Program-made: the position numbers and the translations under genes
DNA from: a bacterium
GTDB taxonomy: Bacteria; B130-G9
NCBI GenBank assembly: GCA_021160245.1
Contig: JAGHCW010000190.1
Span: 1-39,727 of the forward strand
Direction of reading: 5' to 3'
DNA: 39,727 nt
In this document: positions 102 to 18,295 of the stretch, piece after piece
Layout of the letters: each line of letters opens with the position of its first letter
Numbering within the stretch: position 1 is the stretch's first letter
Notes under the pieces: generated by a model
Told to the model about the DNA's origin: nothing
The model's database searches: none
What the model saw: only the letters and a program-made list of their open reading frames with translations

Positions 102-881
102 TCAACCGAGACAGCGCCTTTTGTGCCCCGTGTATTCCGCGTCGGCGGTTATGATGCGGCGCATTGGCTTCTGAGTCTTAATCTCCTCCACAATGTGAGC
201 CACAAGCCCCGGCAGTCTTGACGCGATGAAGAATGCGTTGGCCATAAGCGTGTCTATTTGCATCTCGCAGAGCAAAGCCGCGATCGCTCCGTCAACGTTG
301 ATTGGAAGCCTTTTTCCAGAAACTTCATGAAGCGACTTCTCAATGGCGAGCGCCATATTCACGTATTGGCCACAGACGCCCTCCTCCTTGGCTATCTCAA
401 AGAGCCTTGCCGTCCTCGGGTCATTCGTAGGGTATCTATGGCCGAATCCCGGGATCCGCTTCTTGGCCTCTTTATATTGCGCTACGAGGGCGACTGCCGC
501 CTCAACCAGCGTCTGGCCCTCGGCCTCCGCGCTCCGCACCGCCTCCGTAAGGACCTTCATGCAGCCCTCTATCGCGCCTCCGTGAAATCTCGAAATCGCA
601 AGCACGCCGGCAGCAATTGCGGCGTTCAAAGGCGAACCAGTCGAGGCGACCGTCATTGCGGCATTCGCAGACGGTGGCGTTACCCCATGATCCAGCGATG
701 AGACGAGGATTGCGTCGAGCACTTTCTTGTGCGAAGGCTCTGGGAGTTCACCCATCAACGTTAGGTAGAAGGCCTCTGCATAAGATACTTTGCCCATCAA
801 ATCGTCGATAGGGTAGCCCCGCAGCATAATCATGTTCGGCGCAACGTTGGTTACTCTAGTCTCCCACTTCTTGTCGCTCAA
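102..881 (-). CDS. ccl: Citryl-CoA lyase-like protein (citrate synthase superfamily, short form)
   Basis: A 259-residue protein of the citrate synthase fold, much shorter than a true citrate synthase (about 370-430) and close to the stand-alone citryl-CoA lyase of Hydrogenobacter or the C-terminal lyase part of ATP-citrate lyase. These enzymes split citryl-CoA into acetyl-CoA and oxaloacetate. Visible family signatures are SLDHGVTPPSA with the first His, PGFGHRYP with the second His, and INVDGAIAAL with the catalytic-type Asp. The start is TTG at 881, with an SD-like GGAGGG about 8 bases upstream. It is the last gene of a three-gene operon, 42 bases after the CoA-ligase alpha subunit, so it probably acts on that ligase's acyl-CoA product. 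A lyase for another hydroxyacyl-CoA cannot be excluded; the superfamily is certain, the citrate substrate inferred. Confidence 0.82.
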   Translation of the reverse strand: MSDKKWETRVTNVAPNMIMLRGYPIDDLMGKVSYAEAFYLTLMGELPEPSHKKVLDAILVSSLDHGVTPPSANAAMTVASTGSPLNAAIAAGVLAISRFHGGAIEGCMKVLTEAVRSAEAEGQTLVEAAVALVAQYKEAKKRIPGFGHRYPTNDPRTARLFEIAKEEGVCGQYVNMALAIEKSLHEVSGKRLPINVDGAIAALLCEMQIDTLMANAFFIASRLPGLVAHIVEEIKTQKPMRRIITADAEYTGHKRRCLG

Positions 882-923: not shown

Positions 924-1823
924 TTACAGCGTCCTCAAGACATCCCGTGTGATCTCAGGTATCTCGCCAAAATTCTCAACGACGAAGCAGCCGGCCTCCT
1001 GCAAAGCCTTGACCTTGCTCTCGTGCGTCCCCCTGCCCTGCTCGATTATGGCGCCGGCGTGTGAGAATCGCATCCCGTGCTTCGCCGCAGCGCCGCCGAT
1101 GAAGGCGACAAGTGGTTTGTTGAACTTGCCGTCTGAAATGAGCGAGGCGACCTGCTCTTCCTGGGTCGATCCGATCTCTCCGAACATGACCACAGCCTTT
1201 GTCTCGTCGTCTTCTTGAAAGAGCTCCACCGCCTGGGCGAGGTTGATGCCGATGATCGGGTCACCGCCAACGTGCATGATGGTGGTCTGTCCGATGCCGA
1301 TCTTGTTCAGGTAATAGGCAATCGAGGTCGTGATGCCACCGCTTCTTGAGACAACACCAACTGGGCCTCGCTGAAAGTTCTCTCGCACAAACCGCGAGCG
1401 ACCGCCAATCATCCCCATGAGCGCCCGCTCTGGGCTCATCACCCCAAGTGTGTTCGGTCCAATGAAGCGGGCATTGTGCTCCGACGCCAGCTCAGAAACT
1501 GCCAGCACGTCGTAAATCGGTACGCGGTCAGGAATTAGAACGACCAGCGGTATTCCGGCAAGGATAGCCTCAAAGGCCGCGTTTTTTACATAAGGGCCGG
1601 GCACGAATATCACGCTCAGATCGAAATGGCTCTCGCGCTCTATCGCCTCGACAACGGTATCATATACGGGGAGGCCGTGGACTATCTCTCCGGCTTTGCC
1701 AGGGGATACACCGGCGAGCACCTTTGTTCCGTAGTCAAGCATGAGCTTCGTGCGGACCATACCCTCACGACCGGTTATGCCTTGAACGAGAACTCGCTTG
1801 GTCTCATCAATCAGGATCGACAT
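924..1823 (-). CDS. Succinyl/citryl-CoA synthetase alpha-like subunit
   Basis: A 299-residue protein of the succinyl-CoA synthetase alpha (SucD) family: a CoA-binding Rossmann domain (VLVQGITGREGMVRTKLMLD, residues about 11-30) and a ligase domain with the phosphohistidine loop near the C-terminus (GGAAAKHGMRFSHAGAII). The His of SHAGA is the residue phosphorylated in this family. The ATG start at 1823 has an AAGGA-type ribosome site. It lies 40 bases after the beta subunit gene and 42 before the lyase gene. Together the three look like an unfused ATP-citrate-lyase equivalent, as in the CcsA/CcsB/Ccl system of Aquificales. On sequence alone a succinate- or malate-CoA ligase is also possible; the lyase neighbour favours citrate. 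Confidence 0.85.
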   Translation of the reverse strand: MSILIDETKRVLVQGITGREGMVRTKLMLDYGTKVLAGVSPGKAGEIVHGLPVYDTVVEAIERESHFDLSVIFVPGPYVKNAAFEAILAGIPLVVLIPDRVPIYDVLAVSELASEHNARFIGPNTLGVMSPERALMGMIGGRSRFVRENFQRGPVGVVSRSGGITTSIAYYLNKIGIGQTTIMHVGGDPIIGINLAQAVELFQEDDETKAVVMFGEIGSTQEEQVASLISDGKFNKPLVAFIGGAAAKHGMRFSHAGAIIEQGRGTHESKVKALQEAGCFVVENFGEIPEITRDVLRTL

Positions 1824-1863: not shown

Positions 1864-3396
1864 TCACGATGCCGCCTCGTCGTCTAGCCCAGAAATTGGC
1901 AGCTCTATTTTGATACCCCGATTACCTAATAGATGGCACTCGAGCTCGCAGGCGAGGCATTCTGTGCAGCGGCCCTTTGCCGCCGCATCCTCCGCGATAG
2001 CAAGCCTAGGCACGCCATCTGTGAGCTTCAGAATCTGTTTTGCACAAGCGTCAATGCAGGGCTTCTCCTCGCATTTCAAACACCGCTCGTGGTCGAAATC
2101 GACTCGACCAGTTATCGTCCTAAATGAATAGCTCACAGAGCTTGGGAAATCGAATCGCTTCCATTCACTCGCGATGTCAGGTTTCTCCAGAAGAACGGAC
2201 AGCCGCTCTGCACAGAATTCGGGCGAATCGTCCTTGCCATAAGCCTCAAGCGGCGCGGGCCAATAGGCTGAGAATCGCCTCAGAATCTCAATTGCGACCT
2301 CCTCAGCATTTCCGCCGAGGCGGATTACCGCCGGCGCGCTGAGGCCTTCCTCGGCAAACGCCTTAACGAGCCCCCTGGCGGAATGAAACTGCTCCTGGCT
2401 GGCCACTCCAGAGCCGGATGCGAAATAGCCGTCGATGTTCTTCTGGGCGAGTATTATCCGTGCCGCCCTGTAAACTTTTGACGAGGGGGGATTGCCACTA
2501 GTATCGCAGAAGTTGGCGAGCTTATATCCCCTCTTTAGCAGCGCATCCATCGACATCATCGAGCCGCCTCCACCAGCCCCGTGGAAGCCTATGACGCCCT
2601 CACCTTTCTCGAAATCCCGTGTCATCTGGAAGAAATAGAACGTCCCACGATAGTCACCCGCCTCAATTCCATAAGCGATGCGCTCAAGAGACGTTGCCGG
2701 ACGGTCAAACTCTCGCGCTATTTCTATCCCACGGTCGGTATGGCGGAATTCGGCATAATCGTCAATCGTCATTCGGCAGTCGGCAGCCATGAAGCGGCCG
2801 TCCTTGGTCTGAACGAGGGGGTTGATCTCAGCACTGCGCGCCTCGTACTTGCGTGCGGCAGCCCAAAACGCCATGATGATTGGGATGAGTTTCTTCTGCT
2901 CGACACCCCTAATCCCAACCCTTCGCAGCATGTCCCGCGCCTCGAAATCGTAGATGTCCCGGTCTGGGCAAAGGTGCATTCTCGCTATGGATTCGGGCCA
3001 CTTGAGAGCGATTTCCTCGATGCCGGTGCCCCCGCGGGTGCTGAGCATCATAACGGGTCGCTTTCTGACGTCGTCAATCGTCATGCCGAGGAAGTACTCG
3101 GATGCGATGTCGAGTTTTTCCTCAATCAACAGCTTTAGAACTTGCTGGCCCTTGACGAGAGCGCCCAACATTCTCGTTGCGTGCGCAAATACATCATCCT
3201 GAGACTCGGCAAAGCTGATGCCGCCCGCCGACGCCCGGCCTGTTACCCAAACCTGCGATTTGAGAACGACAGGGAAGCCTATTCGCTCCGCGGCCTTTTG
3301 TGCTTCGTCGGCAGTCGAAATCACCTCTGAACGAGGCACTGAAATGCCGGCGTCTTCAATAATCGTCTTGCCCTGATACTCAAATAACCTCGCCAA
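1864..3396 (-). CDS. ATP-grasp CoA-ligase beta subunit with C-terminal di-[4Fe-4S] domain
   Basis: A 510-residue protein. Residues 1-425 follow the succinyl-CoA synthetase beta / ATP-citrate lyase small-subunit plan: an N-terminal LFEYQGKTIIEDAGI, an ATP-grasp domain with SAEINPL and a divergent MAADCRMTIDDYAEF, and a flavodoxin-like domain with IGFHGAGGGGSMMSMDALL and ANFCDTSGNPP. Residues 430-510 form an extra domain with two ferredoxin-type cysteine sets: C439, C442, C447, C451 (CX2CX4CX3C) and C477, C480, C483, C487 (CX2CX2CX3C). Ordinary SucC or CcsA proteins (about 390-430 residues) lack this. The start is TTG at 3396, which gives the family-typical N-terminus. First gene of the operon, with a candidate promoter at 3442-3470. 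The substrate is probably citrate, inferred from the downstream lyase; the role of the clusters is unknown. Confidence 0.85.
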   Translation of the reverse strand: MARLFEYQGKTIIEDAGISVPRSEVISTADEAQKAAERIGFPVVLKSQVWVTGRASAGGISFAESQDDVFAHATRMLGALVKGQQVLKLLIEEKLDIASEYFLGMTIDDVRKRPVMMLSTRGGTGIEEIALKWPESIARMHLCPDRDIYDFEARDMLRRVGIRGVEQKKLIPIIMAFWAAARKYEARSAEINPLVQTKDGRFMAADCRMTIDDYAEFRHTDRGIEIAREFDRPATSLERIAYGIEAGDYRGTFYFFQMTRDFEKGEGVIGFHGAGGGGSMMSMDALLKRGYKLANFCDTSGNPPSSKVYRAARIILAQKNIDGYFASGSGVASQEQFHSARGLVKAFAEEGLSAPAVIRLGGNAEEVAIEILRRFSAYWPAPLEAYGKDDSPEFCAERLSVLLEKPDIASEWKRFDFPSSVSYSFRTITGRVDFDHERCLKCEEKPCIDACAKQILKLTDGVPRLAIAEDAAAKGRCTECLACELECHLLGNRGIKIELPISGLDDEAAS

Positions 3397-8035: not shown

Positions 8036-9778
8036 TTAGGCTAGCCCTACGAGTTCGTAGAGCTCTTCTGGTTTGGCTTTCCCCTTGAGCTCAATCGCTT
8101 TGGATGGGCGCAAGTTGAACTTGCCTGCTTTGACAACTTTTTCGTATGTCGATTTGCCGACGAGTATCTGGTCAGGCTCTGCGGCCGTCTCTATTCTCTT
8201 CGCGGTGTTGACCGGCTCGCCGACTATCGTGTAGTCCATTCTCTTTAAGCAGCCTATGTCTCCGACAAGCACGTGGCCGGTGTTGATGCCGGTTTTCACC
8301 CTGAACCTCATCTCCGGCGCTCTTGCGCTGTTCAGTTTTTTAAGCGAATCCCTCATTGAAAGGGCGGTGAGAAGTGCTCGCTCCGGGTCATCTGGTTGAA
8401 AAAACGGGACGCCAAATACAGCTAGTATCTCGTCCGCGATGAACTTGTCCAGCGTTCCTTCTCGCTCGAATATCACCTGTGTCATCTCGCCGAAATACTC
8501 ATTAAGCATGTTGCGGACTACTTCCGGTTTGTGCTTCTGACAGAACACAGTGAAATCCGTTATATCGGCGAAGAGTATAGTAACCTCGGCCTCCTGGACA
8601 TCCAGCGCGTCTTCCGGACCCACGATTATCCGCTCTATCACAGCTGGTGAATGATAGCGCGCCATTCTCCGGCGGAACTCATCCTGCCTTATTATCTCCA
8701 GGTTGAGCTGTGCTTGGCTTATCGCTATAGCCGCTATGTTGCCAAGCGCCGTAATCATGTCGAGATCGTCCTGAGTAAAACGGGCCGACTCGTCTGATGT
8801 GTCGAGATATAAAAGACCCAGCACGGCGCCTTGATGAATAATGGGAACGCACATGGCGGACTTAATGCCCAGTATCTGGACGCTCTCCTTTTCGCTGAGG
8901 CTCGGATGCAACATGATATCATTTACGAGTATGGCCTTTCGCTCCTTCATGGCTTGACCGGCGATACTCCTGCTCAATATGATCTTCGCGCCTCTTTCGA
9001 CCTCATCGGCGAAGCGGACTTTTTCTGGCCGCCATTCGCCTGTCTTGCTATCCACCATAATCAGGAGGCCATGCTTGACAGCGACATTCCCAAAGGCTAG
9101 GTCCATTACTCTCTCAAGCAGACCATCAAGTGAGGTGGCCGAGATGAGCGCTTTGCCCGCCTCGTATAAGATGGAGAGCATTTCGGTCTTTTTCTGAAGC
9201 TGTGAGACCTCCTGTGAGGAGAGCGTTTCTTTGTTTTCCTTATTCTTCTCCCTCTCCTTGGATACTGGCCCAATAGCGTCATCGACCGAGAGCATGATCG
9301 TCTTCCCCGAGCGAAGGTCTGGGACCGCGTCGGTGATCTCTACAACTGCATCCGCTGACGAAGTGAATGAGGCCTGGGCTTCGCCGGAGTAAGAGTTTGG
9401 ATACTTGATGGCGGAGTCTCGTTTAGTCAAACTGCCGCTATCTTGCTCAAACAAGAGCCTGTAGTTGCCGATGGCGATCACGTCCCCGTTCGAGAGGACA
9501 ACGCTGTCAACCTTGAGACCGTTGACATAAGTGCCGTTCTTGCTGCCAAGATCGGACAGTTCCGCTAGGCCGGTTCCCTTAATGTTCAGCATCGCGTGCT
9601 TTCGAGAGACGTTAAGGCCGCCCAGCTGCAGGTCCGGATCCTGCCTGTCCTTCAGCGACATGCGCCCGATGACGTGTGAGCCGGAAGCAAGTGTCCAATC
9701 CGTCCTAGCAGACCCGGGCTCAAGAACGATCAGTCTGGCCTTGGATGTCAGCTCGTAAACCGCGACGTCACTATCCAA
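8036..9778 (-). CDS. FHA-GAF-class III adenylate/guanylate cyclase
   Basis: A 580-residue cytoplasmic signalling protein with no membrane segment. Domains in order: FHA (about 18-112, with GRMSL, SRKH at 58-61 and GSKNGTYVNG) for phosphothreonine binding; a charged linker and short coiled coil (about 170-205); GAF (about 200-355) for a small-molecule or redox signal; and a class III cyclase domain (about 395-545). The catalytic set appears complete: metal Asp D405 and D449, purine-selecting K445 and D515 (the ATP-type pair), and transition-state N524 and R528. Adenylate cyclase activity is therefore likely. The start is TTG at 9778, needed to keep the FHA domain intact, with a weak ribosome site. 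Last gene of a five-gene minus-strand cluster, 25 bases after the BFN gene. Confidence 0.92.
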   Translation of the reverse strand: MDSDVAVYELTSKARLIVLEPGSARTDWTLASGSHVIGRMSLKDRQDPDLQLGGLNVSRKHAMLNIKGTGLAELSDLGSKNGTYVNGLKVDSVVLSNGDVIAIGNYRLLFEQDSGSLTKRDSAIKYPNSYSGEAQASFTSSADAVVEITDAVPDLRSGKTIMLSVDDAIGPVSKEREKNKENKETLSSQEVSQLQKKTEMLSILYEAGKALISATSLDGLLERVMDLAFGNVAVKHGLLIMVDSKTGEWRPEKVRFADEVERGAKIILSRSIAGQAMKERKAILVNDIMLHPSLSEKESVQILGIKSAMCVPIIHQGAVLGLLYLDTSDESARFTQDDLDMITALGNIAAIAISQAQLNLEIIRQDEFRRRMARYHSPAVIERIIVGPEDALDVQEAEVTILFADITDFTVFCQKHKPEVVRNMLNEYFGEMTQVIFEREGTLDKFIADEILAVFGVPFFQPDDPERALLTALSMRDSLKKLNSARAPEMRFRVKTGINTGHVLVGDIGCLKRMDYTIVGEPVNTAKRIETAAEPDQILVGKSTYEKVVKAGKFNLRPSKAIELKGKAKPEELYELVGLA

Positions 9779-10398: not shown

Positions 10399-11190
10399 TC
10401 AATAAGACAGAGAGCCTTGCGCCTCCACCACGACTACCCCTGGGGGCGGCACAAATACGAAGAGCTTGTCATCCAGCGGCTCGTTCACTTTCACATCATG
10501 AAGCGAGATAGTCGTCTCATCTCCGCCCTTTTCGAATGAGCGGAATTGAACCGGGAGCCCGGTTACTCTGTCAATGCGAATGTAAAACTCCCGAATCAGC
10601 CTTCCCATCCCCTCATCCTTCGGCTTCAGACTGACCTCAAACGTAGACTTATCACTGCAAATAAGATCGATAAAAAACGAATCGCTGAGATCGCATAGCG
10701 GACGCTCAAAGCCGAGGCAGAGCTTGTCAAAGAGCCGACTTTTCTTCTTGAACCTCTTGAGATCGTATAATTCGGCCCGACTGAATGCTGGGTAATAAAG
10801 CCACACTCTGCTGCCGTCGGAGACGGTAACGCTCTCGTCTGGAGGGAGATAATGCCAGACGAATTTTGCACCTTTCTTATAGAGAAACTCACCCTCAGAG
10901 ACGACTGGCGAAAGCAGCATTGAGAGCGACTTTTGTTGGACGATTTTTGCCCTTAATGTTCTTAGCGATTCGATCTTCCCCCGCGTGCCGGCAAGCAGTT
11001 CCATAGCTGCCTTATGGCTGTTGGAGGGGTGTTCTTTGACGCTCGAATGGGAGGGGAGCTCGCTCGCTTGCGGTTGCCCGTAATGTAGCAGACCGATAGA
11101 GACGACGACAGCAACTATGCGGACAATTCGCACGATCATGCTCATCTTAATCGGGGAAGATTCTTTGAGATTGAGTCGCAGACGCGTCAT
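10399..11190 (-). CDS. lolA: LolA-like outer-membrane lipoprotein carrier
   Basis: A 263-residue exported protein of the LolA family, which carries lipoproteins across the periplasm to the outer membrane. After an N-terminal hydrophobic signal segment (MIVRIVRIVAVVVSIGLL, about residues 18-35), the mature part shows the LolA order: LRTLRAKIVQQKSL, GEFLYKKGAKFVWHYLPP, SDGSRVWLYYP, then TGLPVQF and the C-terminal LFVFVPPPGV. The ATG at 11190 overlaps the preceding stop by 4 bases (ATGA), suggesting translational coupling; an internal ATG at 11145 would give a more standard signal peptide. Divergent enough that a related outer-membrane-stress or lipid-binding role is possible. Confidence 0.85.
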   Translation of the reverse strand: MTRLRLNLKESSPIKMSMIVRIVRIVAVVVSIGLLHYGQPQASELPSHSSVKEHPSNSHKAAMELLAGTRGKIESLRTLRAKIVQQKSLSMLLSPVVSEGEFLYKKGAKFVWHYLPPDESVTVSDGSRVWLYYPAFSRAELYDLKRFKKKSRLFDKLCLGFERPLCDLSDSFFIDLICSDKSTFEVSLKPKDEGMGRLIREFYIRIDRVTGLPVQFRSFEKGGDETTISLHDVKVNEPLDDKLFVFVPPPGVVVVEAQGSLSY

Positions 11191-12563
11191 TTGCTCTTAA
11201 AAGCCCTCTGAGCGCTCAGGGCTGTCTCAATAACGAGTGTGTCCAGATCAGCATCCCCCCCGACGACCTCCGGCGTATTGTCCATGAAAACCACTTCAAG
11301 CCCATTGTCGATGGCGATACTTGCAGCAACATCCACGGATGCCGCCTTTAGCTCAGTAATTAGAACGTCAGCATCAGGAAACCTGGCTATTGCGGAACCG
11401 AGCTCCTGCCTCAACCGCGACCCCGTCGCTAGGCTGTGCGTGATGGCAAGCGTCTCACAACCATAGGCGACCAGAAGATGATCACAAATCTCGCTTGCAC
11501 ACTCTCTTGGCGCGGTGGTTGCGACAATCGCCTTCTTCTGCTCAACGTCAATGAGCGGCTTGGGTCTGAATATAGTCCACACCACTTTGATCGAGGGGTT
11601 TATCGCTCTGATGGCAAGGTCAAGCTGCTTCACCTTGGTCATATCCGCGGAGGGAGGCTCGCAAAGCGTCAGGACTGCAAGGCTTGCGCGCCGAATCCTG
11701 TAAGGCCCCATGTATCCAGAGACGTTCTCCAGCGGTTGGTTGGCGCCGACAACAACAATCACCTCATCTGAGGCTACATCCGGGATTGAGGCGCCACTGC
11801 CCTTGAGGATCACGAGGTTGACCGGAAGATCGTTTGCCATCTCTGCGCCCTTGGCAACCGTCGATTCAAAGACCTGACCCGAGAATCCTCCACCGCAGCA
11901 TCTGCATCCAACTGTCGGTACTCGCGACATCAGAGCGTCTTCAAAGTGGCCCGATGACGCATTGCATCCCTTCTTGCTCATATCGAGTAGATAGCTGGGC
12001 GTTATCGCCAGCTCATCAGCCCTGATGATCTCAGGTTCCGACGGACCGCCCGTGTCCATCGTTACAATGCAGGGCAACCACGACTCATCGAAATCCCCTT
12101 CCAGGCCACTCAAAACGCGCGCCATGTAGGCCGAGACCGCCGTCTTGCCGATTCTCTTGCCCGTGCCGATAACTGCGATTGAGGGCTTCTTGCAGACCCT
12201 AGGCAACGAGGGCGGCGTGAACTCAAAGTCGGGCCCTTTGTATGCGATACCCAAACTCAATATCACGCACGCCATCTCCATTCGCTCAGCATATCCGACG
12301 ACAGGCTCGTCAGAAAGGTCGTATATGGTGTCCGGCGAGAATTGCTCGATTCCATCTCTTATGCCCTCAAGAGGCGAATTTGGGACGATTACCGGCACGT
12401 CCAGAACTTTGAGGTCTGAAGGCGGGCCGACCTTCTCCGTCCTACCAATAAAAATCGCTCCCACGACCTTAAAGCTCGTCATCCGATCAAGCGACTGAAG
12501 CGCTGCGCGAGTAACGGGGAGATGATGCTCTCCGTCAATCAAAGCCAGGACTCTCTTTGTCAT
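11187..12563 (-). CDS. Cyclic 2,3-diphosphoglycerate synthetase-like P-loop protein
   Basis: A 458-residue protein resembling the archaeal enzyme that makes cyclic 2,3-diphosphoglycerate, a compatible solute and phosphate store, from 2,3-diphosphoglycerate with ATP. It opens with RVLALIDGEHHLPVTR, typical of the family, and has a P-loop at 133-141 (GTGKRIGKT). The segment TVGCRCCGGGFSG and the C-terminal PDADVLITELKAASVDVAA are further apparent family features. It begins 9 bases after the radical SAM gene and overlaps lolA by 4 bases. Bacterial homologues are annotated in scattered lineages but their product is mostly untested. The family call is good; the actual product is an inference. Confidence 0.78.
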   Translation of the reverse strand: MTKRVLALIDGEHHLPVTRAALQSLDRMTSFKVVGAIFIGRTEKVGPPSDLKVLDVPVIVPNSPLEGIRDGIEQFSPDTIYDLSDEPVVGYAERMEMACVILSLGIAYKGPDFEFTPPSLPRVCKKPSIAVIGTGKRIGKTAVSAYMARVLSGLEGDFDESWLPCIVTMDTGGPSEPEIIRADELAITPSYLLDMSKKGCNASSGHFEDALMSRVPTVGCRCCGGGFSGQVFESTVAKGAEMANDLPVNLVILKGSGASIPDVASDEVIVVVGANQPLENVSGYMGPYRIRRASLAVLTLCEPPSADMTKVKQLDLAIRAINPSIKVVWTIFRPKPLIDVEQKKAIVATTAPRECASEICDHLLVAYGCETLAITHSLATGSRLRQELGSAIARFPDADVLITELKAASVDVAASIAIDNGLEVVFMDNTPEVVGGDADLDTLVIETALSAQRAFKSK

Positions 12564-14510: not shown

Positions 14511-16376
14511 CTATTCACCTTTTTCGTCCCGCTTTCGCCCAGAGATTAGTATGAAATTCCTCAGCTGACTTGCGCTCTTTGCCTCAAGCCACCTCTTGTG
14601 AAATCCCGGCTCCTGAGTGATCTGAGCGATGGCCATCAAGGCGCGCAAATGATAGTTTCGCTCGTCTCTCGAGCCGACCATAACGAATGCGGTATGCACG
14701 TTTGATGGGCCCATTGAGAAGGTGATTCCGGGCTTGCAGCGCACTAAGACGATATCAAATAGATGGTCGCCCTCAATCACAACGTGCGGAATGGCTATCC
14801 CCTGTCCGACCACTGTGCTGGATTCGTGCTCCCGTTCAAGAAACATCTTCAACAGATCAGCCTCAGGCAGCCCGAAACGAGGCGCAAGCGCCCCGGCGAC
14901 CATCGAGAGCATCTTGTGCGAGGAGATTGCCTCCTTAATGTCGAATATCTCACTGTTTTGTATCAACTTGTCGAATCTGTCCTCAACTATCTCGTCGCGC
15001 TCATAGACGATCTCCCGGAGTTCGCTCTCAAGGGAGCCGTTAACGAGTTCCTTGGAGGTGATACGTCTCACAAGGTGGACGAGCGCCGACTGTCTTTTTG
15101 TGGTTGCCCTGCAATAGATGGCATACCAACCCAACGCCAACAGGCCGAATATGCCCGAAATAATCATGGGCAGCGCCCCCATTTCGAATATCAGGAATCC
15201 ATATATGGCGATTGCTGCGCCTTGAATCCAGGGATAAAAGGGCGAGCGAAAGACTGGCCGGTAGCTCTGGATTTTGCTCTCTCGCATCACAATGACCGAG
15301 ACGTTGACAAGCGCAAAGAGGATAAGTTTCATGGTTGATGCGGTCTTGATGAGGTCTTCAATGGACAGAAAGGCGATGACCATAACCATGAATCCCGATG
15401 TTAAGATAACGGACACATAAGGTATTCCGCGACCGGGGCTCATTTTTTGAAGGAACTTGGGCAGCAGGCCGTCTCGGCTCATGGCCATCGGAGACCGGGA
15501 CGCGCTGGCTATCCCGCTGTTGGCGGTTGTAATAAAAGCCAGGATAGCTGCGACGGCAAGCGCGACGATTCCTGCGCGACCCATTGAGAGACCGGCGCCC
15601 AGTGAGATAGGCGTCAGGCTTCCGCCCAGCGACTCCGCTGGGACAAGACCCACCGTGATAAACACAACCACAATGTAAAGCCCGCTCACGACGAAGAAAG
15701 CTATGAACATCCCTAGCGGAATGTTTCTCCCGGGATTCCGCACCTCCTCTGCAATACTTGCGATCTTTGTTAGTCCACCAAAAGAGACGAAAACCAGCCC
15801 GGCCGTAGCCAGAATCGAGCCAAATCCCTTGGGCATGAAATCGGCGAAACGCTGGACATCTACTTTTCCGACGCCTTCCCCAATGTAAAGGAGCAGAAGC
15901 GCCAGAAGAATGACGACAAGGACTATCTGTGTCCGACCCACACTCTCTATGCTAATCAGGTTCAGGACGGTAAAGAAAACGCAGCAAGTGATGGCTATTA
16001 GTTTGACCTGTAATGAGGTTATGTCGGGGTAGATGAGGGCTGCGAACGCGCCGATTCCAAGTAGCGCAAACGCGCTCTTGAGCGTGAGTGAGAGCCATCC
16101 TGCAAAACCCGCTAGCATCCCGGCTAGCGGCCCCATGCTACGTTCTATGAAAAAGTAGCTTCCGCCGGCTTTTGGCATCGCGGTCGCCAGTTCCGCCTTC
16201 GATAGCAATGATGGGATCACGAGTATCGAGGCGAGCGCGTATGCCAATATCACAGCCGGCCCACTCGCCTCAAACGCGATGCCCGGCAGCACAAACAGAC
16301 CAGAGCTGATCATGCACCCAGTAGCAATGGCGAAGACACCAAAAAGCCCCAAGTCCCTTTTCATACTACTCTGCAT
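14511..16376 (-). CDS. APC-family amino-acid permease fused to a PTS EIIA-like domain (copy 2)
   Basis: A 621-residue fusion. Residues about 1-420 are an APC-superfamily transporter with about 12 membrane helices; the start GVFAIATGCMISSGLFVLPG contains the substrate-binding GxxSSG-type break of helix 1, and MPKAGGSYFFIERSMGPLAG follows. After a charged linker, residues about 470-615 match the fructose/mannitol-type EIIA domain, with the phosphorylatable His at H531 in GQGIAIPHVVIEG. It may be an amino-acid transporter gated or sensed through phosphorylation, but no EI or HPr gene is present in the window. 53 bases downstream of a paralogue of identical length (16430-18295). The substrate cannot be assigned. 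Confidence 0.9.
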   Translation of the reverse strand: MQSSMKRDLGLFGVFAIATGCMISSGLFVLPGIAFEASGPAVILAYALASILVIPSLLSKAELATAMPKAGGSYFFIERSMGPLAGMLAGFAGWLSLTLKSAFALLGIGAFAALIYPDITSLQVKLIAITCCVFFTVLNLISIESVGRTQIVLVVILLALLLLYIGEGVGKVDVQRFADFMPKGFGSILATAGLVFVSFGGLTKIASIAEEVRNPGRNIPLGMFIAFFVVSGLYIVVVFITVGLVPAESLGGSLTPISLGAGLSMGRAGIVALAVAAILAFITTANSGIASASRSPMAMSRDGLLPKFLQKMSPGRGIPYVSVILTSGFMVMVIAFLSIEDLIKTASTMKLILFALVNVSVIVMRESKIQSYRPVFRSPFYPWIQGAAIAIYGFLIFEMGALPMIISGIFGLLALGWYAIYCRATTKRQSALVHLVRRITSKELVNGSLESELREIVYERDEIVEDRFDKLIQNSEIFDIKEAISSHKMLSMVAGALAPRFGLPEADLLKMFLEREHESSTVVGQGIAIPHVVIEGDHLFDIVLVRCKPGITFSMGPSNVHTAFVMVGSRDERNYHLRALMAIAQITQEPGFHKRWLEAKSASQLRNFILISGRKRDEKGE

Positions 16377-16429
16377 AATACGGTCTCTGTTTTGAATTCT
16401 CGTGTTAATTGCGACTTCAACACGATCGT

Positions 16430-18295
16430 CTATCCATCTCTGTGGTCTCGCTTTCGTTCAGAGAGCAGGACGAGATTCCTTAGTTGGTCAATACTGGACG
16501 CCTCAAGCCATCTCTTTAGGAATCCTGGCTCCTGAGTTATCTGAGCGATGGCCATCAAGGCGCGCAGGTGATAATTACGCTCATCTCTTGAACCGACCAT
16601 AACAAACGCTGTATGCACGTGTGACTGCCCCATCGAGAAGCTGATGCCGGACTTGCACCGCACTAAGACCACGTCGAATAGATGATCACCATCAATCACA
16701 ACGTGCGGAATGGCTATCCCATGTCCGACCACTGTGCTGGATTCGTGCTCCCGCTTGAGAAACATCTTCAAAAGGTCATTCTCCGGCAACTCGAAACGAG
16801 GCGCAAGGGCCCCGGCTACCATTGAGAGCATCTTGTGCGAGGAGATTTTCTCGTCGATGTCGAATACTTCGCATTGCTTTATCAATTTGTCGAAGCGGTC
16901 CTCGACCATCTCGTCTCTCTCTTGGACGATTTTCTTGAGCTCGCTCTCCAGCGAGTCGTCAACCAGCGTTTTTGATGCTATTCGCTCGACAAGATGAACA
17001 AGGGCCGACCGCCGTTTTTCGTTGGCCCTACAATATATTGCGTACCAGATTAGTCCCAAAGCTGCGAAAACGGCAGTGGCGATGACGGGAGCCAGGCCCA
17101 TTTCATAGATTAAGAACAAGTAAATGACCGTCGCCGCGCCTTGAACCCAAGGATAGCCAGGGGAGCGAAACGTGGGGCGGTAGCTCTGGACTTTGCTCTC
17201 GCGCATCACAATAACCGCCACGTTGACGAGCGCGAACACGACCAGGATCATCGTCGATGCAGTCTTCACCAGATTCTCTATCGACAGGAAAGCCATCACT
17301 AGAATCATGAATCCGGATGTGAATAAAATGGAGATATACGGGATGCCGCTGCGCCTCAATGTTTTCAGAAAGATATTGGGCAGTAGGCTGTCTCTGCTCA
17401 TCGCCAATGGTGTGCGGGACGCGCCGGCGATTCCGCCATTTGCCGTCGTCATGAAGGCGAGTATCGCTCCAACGGCAAGCGCGATGCTCCCCACGCGGCC
17501 CATCACGACACCGGCGCCTAGGGATATGGGTGTAAGGCTGCCGGAAAGCTTTGCCGGCTCTACGAGGCCAACAGTTACCCAGAGCACGAGAATGTACAGC
17601 ACGCTCACTACGAAATAAGCCAGGAACATCCCAAGTGGTATATTCCTCGCTGGATCGCGGATTTCCTCGGCGACGAGCGAGATTTTCTTGATCCCGCCAA
17701 AGGAGACGAATACGAGCGCGGCTGTGGCAAGTATTGGCTCGGTACCTCGAGGTATGAAAGTGTCGAATTTTGTGGTGTCAACTTGTCCGATGCCGCCTGC
17801 AACATAGACGAGTAACAGCGTGAGTAGAGCGAATACCAGGGCCACTTGAGCGCGATGGACCCCTCCCATGCTAAAGAGATTAAGAAGCGTGAATAGGACG
17901 CAGAATCCGATGGCAATGAGCTTCACATGCAATGGAGTTATCCCCGGACAAAAGAGCGTAGCAAATACCCCGATGCCAAGCAATGCAAATGCGCTCTTCA
18001 ACGCGATAGAGAACCAATTCGCAAAGCCGGCAAACGTTCCCGCCAATGAGCCCAGGCTGCGGCCAATGAAAAAGTAGCTTCCCCCCGCCTTCGGCATGGC
18101 AGTGGTGAGCTCGGCCTGTGAGAGGATGGCGGGAATAACGAGGAGCGAGGCCAGGGCGTATGAGAGAATCACCGCCGGCCCGGTTGCCGCGAACGCGATG
18201 CCGGGAAGGACAAACAGCCCGGAGCTGACCATGCTCCCGACGGCCATGGAGAAAGTGCCAACTAGTCCGACATCTCGTTTCAGCGTCTTATGCAT
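16430..18295 (-). CDS. APC-family amino-acid permease fused to a PTS EIIA-like domain (copy 1)
   Basis: A 621-residue paralogue of the next gene, with the same architecture: APC transporter (TFSMAVGSMVSSGLFVLPG, then MPKAGGSYFFIGRSLGSLAG) and a C-terminal EIIA-like domain with H531 in GHGIAIPHVVIDG. The two EIIA domains are almost identical and align without a gap, whereas transmembrane parts differ more. For example, bases 16722-16753 equal 14803-14834 exactly, at the constant offset of 1919. This points to tandem duplication with later divergence of the transport part or conversion of the 3' part. It is the first of the pair to be transcribed, 170 bases after the NfeD gene. The transported amino acid is unknown. 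Confidence 0.9.
   Translation of the reverse strand: MHKTLKRDVGLVGTFSMAVGSMVSSGLFVLPGIAFAATGPAVILSYALASLLVIPAILSQAELTTAMPKAGGSYFFIGRSLGSLAGTFAGFANWFSIALKSAFALLGIGVFATLFCPGITPLHVKLIAIGFCVLFTLLNLFSMGGVHRAQVALVFALLTLLLVYVAGGIGQVDTTKFDTFIPRGTEPILATAALVFVSFGGIKKISLVAEEIRDPARNIPLGMFLAYFVVSVLYILVLWVTVGLVEPAKLSGSLTPISLGAGVVMGRVGSIALAVGAILAFMTTANGGIAGASRTPLAMSRDSLLPNIFLKTLRRSGIPYISILFTSGFMILVMAFLSIENLVKTASTMILVVFALVNVAVIVMRESKVQSYRPTFRSPGYPWVQGAATVIYLFLIYEMGLAPVIATAVFAALGLIWYAIYCRANEKRRSALVHLVERIASKTLVDDSLESELKKIVQERDEMVEDRFDKLIKQCEVFDIDEKISSHKMLSMVAGALAPRFELPENDLLKMFLKREHESSTVVGHGIAIPHVVIDGDHLFDVVLVRCKSGISFSMGQSHVHTAFVMVGSRDERNYHLRALMAIAQITQEPGFLKRWLEASSIDQLRNLVLLSERKRDHRDG

Follow-up and report, generated by a model that had tools for sequence, protein, structure and literature searches.

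The window, the whole 39,727-nucleotide stretch of DNA analysed here, is contig C195 in a 3.43-Mb genome whose named relatives belong to Candidatus Coatesbacteria. Near one end it carries a gene for a CoA-ligase beta subunit with a ferredoxin-type domain fused to its C-terminus, followed downstream on the same strand by genes for a CoA-ligase alpha subunit and a citryl-CoA-lyase-type protein (Table 1). The beta subunit begins with LARLFE or MARLFE, an N-terminus common to its relatives on sequence comparison. All eight cysteines placed by the original prediction at residues 439, 442, 447 and 451 and at 477, 480, 483 and 487 were confirmed in the open reading frame. The lyase scores above two curated cut-offs (NF004869, 277 against 212 bits; NF004866, 267 against 245 bits), and its best solved relative is Hydrogenobacter CCL (6hxp, E 2.6e-60).

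Table 1. Positions of the fused ligase, its parts and partners in the window, and of two operon dehydratases from other loci
Feature	Position	Strand	Basis and remarks
CoA-ligase beta subunit with C-terminal ferredoxin-type domain	1864..3396	-	510 aa, TTG start; full length kept in relatives
Beta residues 1-405, ATP-grasp and CoA-ligase domains	2182..3396	-	Pfam ATP-grasp_2 (E 6e-49) and motif comparison with SCS and CcsA; motifs GAGGGGSMMSMD, NFxDTSGNPP and GVASQEQ
Beta residues 424-510, predicted 2[4Fe-4S] ferredoxin-type domain	1867..2127	-	Cysteine pattern, domain models
CoA-ligase alpha subunit	924..1823	-	299 aa, phospho-His motif SHAGAI kept; adjoins beta in 24 of 26 relatives
Citryl-CoA-lyase-type protein	102..881	-	259 aa; NCBIfam citryl-CoA lyase subfamilies
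Operon dehydratases passing TIGR00139	L046:14048-15979; L151:3863-5791		In bacteria with the fused ligase

Elsewhere in the window, two adjacent 621-residue paralogues each join an amino-acid permease to a PTS EIIA-2 domain (14511-18295), and an FHA-GAF-adenylate/guanylate cyclase fusion protein is encoded at 8036-9778. A 458-residue protein (11187-12563) with a P-loop-like GTGKRIGKT motif has no Pfam or NCBIfam match; we take it to resemble archaeal cyclic 2,3-diphosphoglycerate synthetase.

Distribution and gene context of the fusion

The fusion is present in all four genomes of the source family, two full-length Coatesbacteria copies being 72% identical to the query. A survey of 386 genomes found it in 14, source family included, and in the distant relative G242; three phylum-level searches added ten more carriers, and a Chloroflexi MAG, known from a named record, also has it. 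The genome search proposed with the original prediction thus showed the fusion to be kept across 14 bacterial families, that is, the source family and 13 others by the tool's family labels, with the Chloroflexi MAG left out of the count. Because independent assemblies carry the same architecture, misassembly of two genes is excluded. Chance clustering of cysteines is ruled out by the retention of all eight in 24 of the 26 distinct fused beta sequences that formed the conservation set, most of them approximately 48-72% identical. No unfused close relative was found in the 386 genomes, where no match was confined to the ligase part of the query, and a scan of viral contigs yielded no relative.

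Of the 26 loci, 24 have the alpha gene adjacent to beta and 20 have the lyase gene there; the operon also encodes an HD-domain protein at 14 loci, an aconitase-family dehydratase at 11 and a dehydrogenase of the isocitrate/homoisocitrate type at 8. Since contigs end, each of these counts is a lower bound. The original prediction asked whether the fusion is always next to an alpha subunit and a lyase; it is so at most loci, but not at every one. The HD protein, dehydratase and dehydrogenase join the operon in other phyla; that of Coatesbacteria has no linked dehydratase or dehydrogenase. The alpha and lyase genes of G107 lie on a separate contig from the fused beta gene, as does the lyase gene of G305, where alpha is still beside beta. 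No lyase of the citryl-CoA type was found in G243, G391 or G242, and the only lyase found in G375 is an ATP-citrate-lyase-type fusion.

Several features of these neighbourhoods deserve separate mention. The HD-domain protein (PF01966) is small and follows the lyase in the operons of at least 14 relatives (L042:6341-6871, L049:7308-7859 and 12 further loci). In G375, which also has the fused ligase, one cluster (L135) combines aconitase, an ATP-citrate-lyase-type pair (beta and a 713-residue alpha-lyase fusion) and SucCD. The distant, single-cluster fused beta of G242 and its alpha subunit (L051:5941-11664) lie beside a DUF362 gene and the gene for an aldo/keto reductase that itself contains a Fer4 domain.

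The ferredoxin-type domain

The two cysteine motifs of the domain, CxxCx4CxxxC and CxxCxxCxxxC, follow the ligand pattern of dicluster ferredoxins. In canonical dicluster ferredoxins each cluster is held by four cysteines, three from the start of one motif and the final one of the other. By analogy, Cys439, Cys442 and Cys447 with Cys487 would bind cluster I, and Cys451 with Cys477, Cys480 and Cys483 would bind cluster II. The two sequences that depart from the pattern support this predicted pairing, since both have lost all the cluster I ligands together: Cys439, Cys442, Cys447 and Cys487 are replaced by Phe, Glu, Val and Ala in L050 and by Trp, Lys, Ser and Ala in L051, and the four predicted cluster II ligands are retained in both. 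L050 groups in the tree with L049, in which all eight cysteines are intact (support 97/96), so its loss of cluster I is secondary; L051 forms a long branch of unsure position.

Family matches agree with the cysteine pattern. The window protein has a weak Pfam match to the dicluster family Fer4_9 (residues 438-488, E 0.015, under the gathering cut-off), which 14 of 15 family members also match, at best with 1.1e-5. Searched against the PDB, a profile of the domain retrieved solved ferredoxin-type proteins, with HycB4 the best (4.4e-6) and 2-oxoglutarate:acceptor oxidoreductase and PsaC also among them. A first impression from the motif, that of a FixX/ETF-QO-type ferredoxin, found no family match in support. 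Taken together, the evidence strongly indicates a 2[4Fe-4S] ferredoxin-type domain, predicted to bind its clusters through these eight residues, and on sequence comparison it is too diverged for assignment to one ferredoxin subfamily. AlphaFold models, made for the full protein and for the domain by itself, reached pLDDT values of only 55 and 42, from a 4-sequence alignment that was too shallow, and did not place the domain.

Among the nearest named domain families is OorD, the delta subunit of 2-oxoglutarate:acceptor oxidoreductase, for 13 of 15 members (solved as 8ys5_D), and PFOR/OGOR-type genes (POR_N) are present in 15 of the 15 genomes tested. These observations would suit an electron relay or docking module linking the ligase and lyase to a ferredoxin-dependent 2-oxoacid oxidoreductase, so that the same partner would receive both acetyl-CoA and electrons. 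However, dicluster ferredoxins all score alike against the domain, HgcB, PsaC and HycB matching it too, and the operons showed no gene for such a 2-oxoacid oxidoreductase; we consider such a relay distinctly improbable.

Ligase identity and substrate

The ligase part of the protein scores well under the cut-offs of the models for succinyl-CoA synthetase (SCS) beta subunits (TIGR01016, 237 against 375.6 bits; NF001913, 250 against 370 bits) and for malate-CoA ligase beta (NF010647, 166 against 604 bits). In a tree with 20 SCS-like beta subunits the fused proteins all fall on one side (100/96). GGGGS and SGNPP mark its substrate region, at the places where CcsA has GGGGS and GGNPP and SCS has GAGLAMxTMD and GGGA or GGSS. 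The loop that follows, GVASQEQ (GSGVASQEQ), is peculiar to the fused proteins and differs from both SCS and CcsA; the CcsA-type citrate loop (GGTANN) is absent from the fused beta subunit. On these comparisons the ligase part branches as sister to SCS and has citryl-CoA-synthetase-like substrate motifs. The GGGGS and GNPP motifs point to a citryl-CoA synthetase but do not prove one, and they are not unique to that enzyme, since the similar motifs GGGGAS and GGNP of three SCS-like paralogues (L006-L008) have parts in common with them. The organisation is also that of a citryl-CoA synthetase, with a beta subunit of ATP-grasp and CoA-ligase domains and a separate alpha subunit bearing the phospho-His motif, and is not that of ATP-citrate lyase (AclAB), the alpha subunit and lyase here being separate genes.

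It is very improbable that the enzyme is simply the usual succinyl-CoA synthetase of Coatesbacteria to which a tail has been added. The fused beta is the sole SucC homologue found in the source genome G000 (95% complete), G001 and G003, and a second role on succinate is possible in Coatesbacteria because no separate SucC was found there. Against this stand the very low SCS model score, the separate SucC that other carriers possess (over the cut-off in 10 of the 15 genomes searched) and the linkage to a citryl-CoA-type lyase gene. With no other SCS beta found in G000, G001 and G003, the TCA cycle of these organisms may be open or may use another enzyme. Annotation as SucC masks a distinct enzyme family.

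The original prediction supposed citrate as the substrate, with the reaction as a possible entry step of the reductive TCA cycle. Neither is established: the operons of relatives point about equally to homocitrate, and the source genome also has one operon (contig C2) for citrate synthase, the large and small subunits of aconitase and NADP-isocitrate dehydrogenase. We consider citrate and homocitrate about equally likely. The proposal that the substrate is homocitrate or another citrate homologue, with the operon running the alpha-aminoadipate lysine route in reverse (from 2-oxoadipate through homoisocitrate, homocitrate and homocitryl-CoA to 2-oxoglutarate and acetyl-CoA), concerns the substrate only and is compatible with any role for the ferredoxin-type domain. 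It is supported by one phylum, in which the operon dehydratase scores over the homoaconitase equivalog TIGR00139 (763 and 591 against 529.9 bits) and has a solved homoaconitase as its closest solved match; in other families the dehydratases score over the cut-off of no equivalog. For the operon dehydrogenase the highest-scoring model is the homoisocitrate dehydrogenase AksF2, but under its cut-off (344 against 540), and its best solved match is an isocitrate dehydrogenase, about equal to homoisocitrate dehydrogenase (233 and 227 bits). Two operons of one genus include a gene of the saccharopine-dehydrogenase family (saccharopine/lysine-dehydrogenase-like), assigned by annotation at L049 and by gene order only at L149. 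The distinctive GVASQEQ loop and the separate citrate synthase-aconitase-isocitrate dehydrogenase operon of the source genome likewise favour homocitrate; the absence of a linked dehydratase and dehydrogenase from the Coatesbacteria operon, and a lyase nearest to true citryl-CoA lyase, speak against it. Overall we regard the reverse lysine route as a real possibility, somewhat on the doubtful side of even.

The source genome encodes an unlinked dehydratase on contig C70 that is 65% identical to the operon dehydratase of L041. The L046 and L151 dehydratases (Table 1) mark a possible bacterial reverse alpha-aminoadipate route. Nothing relevant was found in the literature on homocitryl-CoA or on Coatesbacteria metabolism. 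If homocitrate is the substrate, this would point to a route of lysine or 2-oxoadipate metabolism, and its key intermediate was named nowhere in the literature searched.

A possible redox gate and its relation to known systems

Our preferred reading, which we hold tentatively and put just short of an even chance, is a citrate or homocitrate ligase-lyase with a redox- or oxygen-responsive gate. The beta and alpha subunits would form an ATP-dependent CoA ligase of the citryl-CoA-synthetase type which, with the citryl-CoA-lyase-type enzyme, would activate a 2-hydroxytricarboxylate, either citrate or homocitrate, and cleave it to acetyl-CoA and a 2-oxoacid, the cleavage direction being that expected from known citryl-CoA lyase chemistry. 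The ferredoxin-type domain that the beta subunit permanently bears would hold two [4Fe-4S] clusters that take no part in the ligase chemistry and instead limit an ATP-costly, otherwise wasteful cleavage to a reduced, low-oxygen cytoplasm; docking to ferredoxin-dependent 2-oxoacid oxidoreductases is a possible addition. Sequence data establish the fusion and how widely it is kept, the ligand pattern, the operon and each enzyme's family, and from these we infer cluster binding, substrate, direction and gating. An oxygen-sensitive [4Fe-4S] cluster in the glutamine PRPP amidotransferase of Bacillus provides a precedent for such gating.

No electrons move in the ligase reaction, which leaves regulation, docking or stabilisation as roles for the clusters. 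The electron-bifurcation-like role suggested in the original prediction found no support, as the chemistry is not redox and no flavin-binding, NADH or other redox-active partner was seen in the operons. A need for control is suggested by full-length citrate synthase, present in all four Coatesbacteria genomes and most other carriers: a citrate-cleaving ligase would there create a futile ATP cycle unless controlled, an argument that fails if the substrate is homocitrate. A heme-copper oxidase (COX1) is present in 13 of 24 fusion-bearing genomes and absent from 11, among them the four Coatesbacteria genomes; restriction of the domain to anaerobes is thereby ruled out, and many carriers must cope with oxygen. 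Against the gate, the oxidase-bearing G305, the source of L050, has lost cluster I yet keeps alpha and lyase, which shows that not every lineage requires two clusters.

This dispensability of cluster I, with cluster II and the rest retained in L050 and L051, would suit a purely structural role, in which the clusters help to build a folded cap, or an element for oligomerisation, that serves to stabilise the ligase or to hold the lyase, with no sensing or electron transport. The ligase has no requirement for electrons, and the flanks of the cysteines, ECLACE and LPI, are well conserved too. A two-cluster ferredoxin would, however, be a costly and oxygen-sensitive cap, and 24 of 26 sequences, over 14 families, retain the ligands of both; we therefore think a structural role rather unlikely, if plausible. 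For the gate, a regulatory redox link between cleavage and the cell can reasonably be inferred. A more specific version, in which these are homocitryl-CoA (or citryl-CoA) synthetases switched by the built-in two-cluster domain so that tricarboxylates are cleaved only in a reduced cell, perhaps on a reverse lysine-pathway route yielding acetyl-CoA and 2-oxoglutarate, strikes us as unlikely.

Conservation of the fusion in at least 14 bacterial families suggests that cleavage of citrate, or of a close relative, is coupled to the cell's redox or oxygen state. Citrate-cleaving enzymes set whether the TCA cycle runs forward or backward, and a two-cluster domain fused to one in many lineages, and not seen unfused, would be a testable link between redox state and an ATP-costly step. 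We found no description of a ferredoxin domain on any CoA ligase from this superfamily, although subscription journals were thinly covered by the search, which makes this weak evidence; the main text of a survey of the reductive TCA cycle (PMC9802188) mentions neither a ferredoxin domain nor Coatesbacteria.

Among the closest known enzymes is CcsA of Hydrogenobacter thermophilus (6hxq_B), the large subunit of citryl-CoA synthetase, which shares the ATP-grasp and ligase domains, the GGGGS and GNPP motifs, and an alpha subunit and a lyase that are proteins of their own, but has 429 residues, no ferredoxin domain, and the loop CGGTANN in place of GSGVASQEQ. SucC has the same fold, Thermus 3ufx_B being the best solved-chain match of the query (E 7e-65), but its solved chains are 385-397 residues long, lack the Fe-S domain, carry other substrate motifs and fall in a separate clade. 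AclB (Chlorobium 6hxj_A, 398 residues) belongs to the same superfamily and reaction type; it too lacks the domain, and its partner AclA is fused to a lyase domain. The earlier statement that SucC, AclB and CcsA are without the domain holds for all solved chains checked, whose alignments to the query end before residue 386, and for the 20 SCS-like proteins compared (361-396 residues). OorD, HgcB, HycB and PsaC share the dicluster ligand pattern of the beta subunit; here, in contrast, the ferredoxin-type part is fused to the C-terminus of a ligase whose reaction is not redox.
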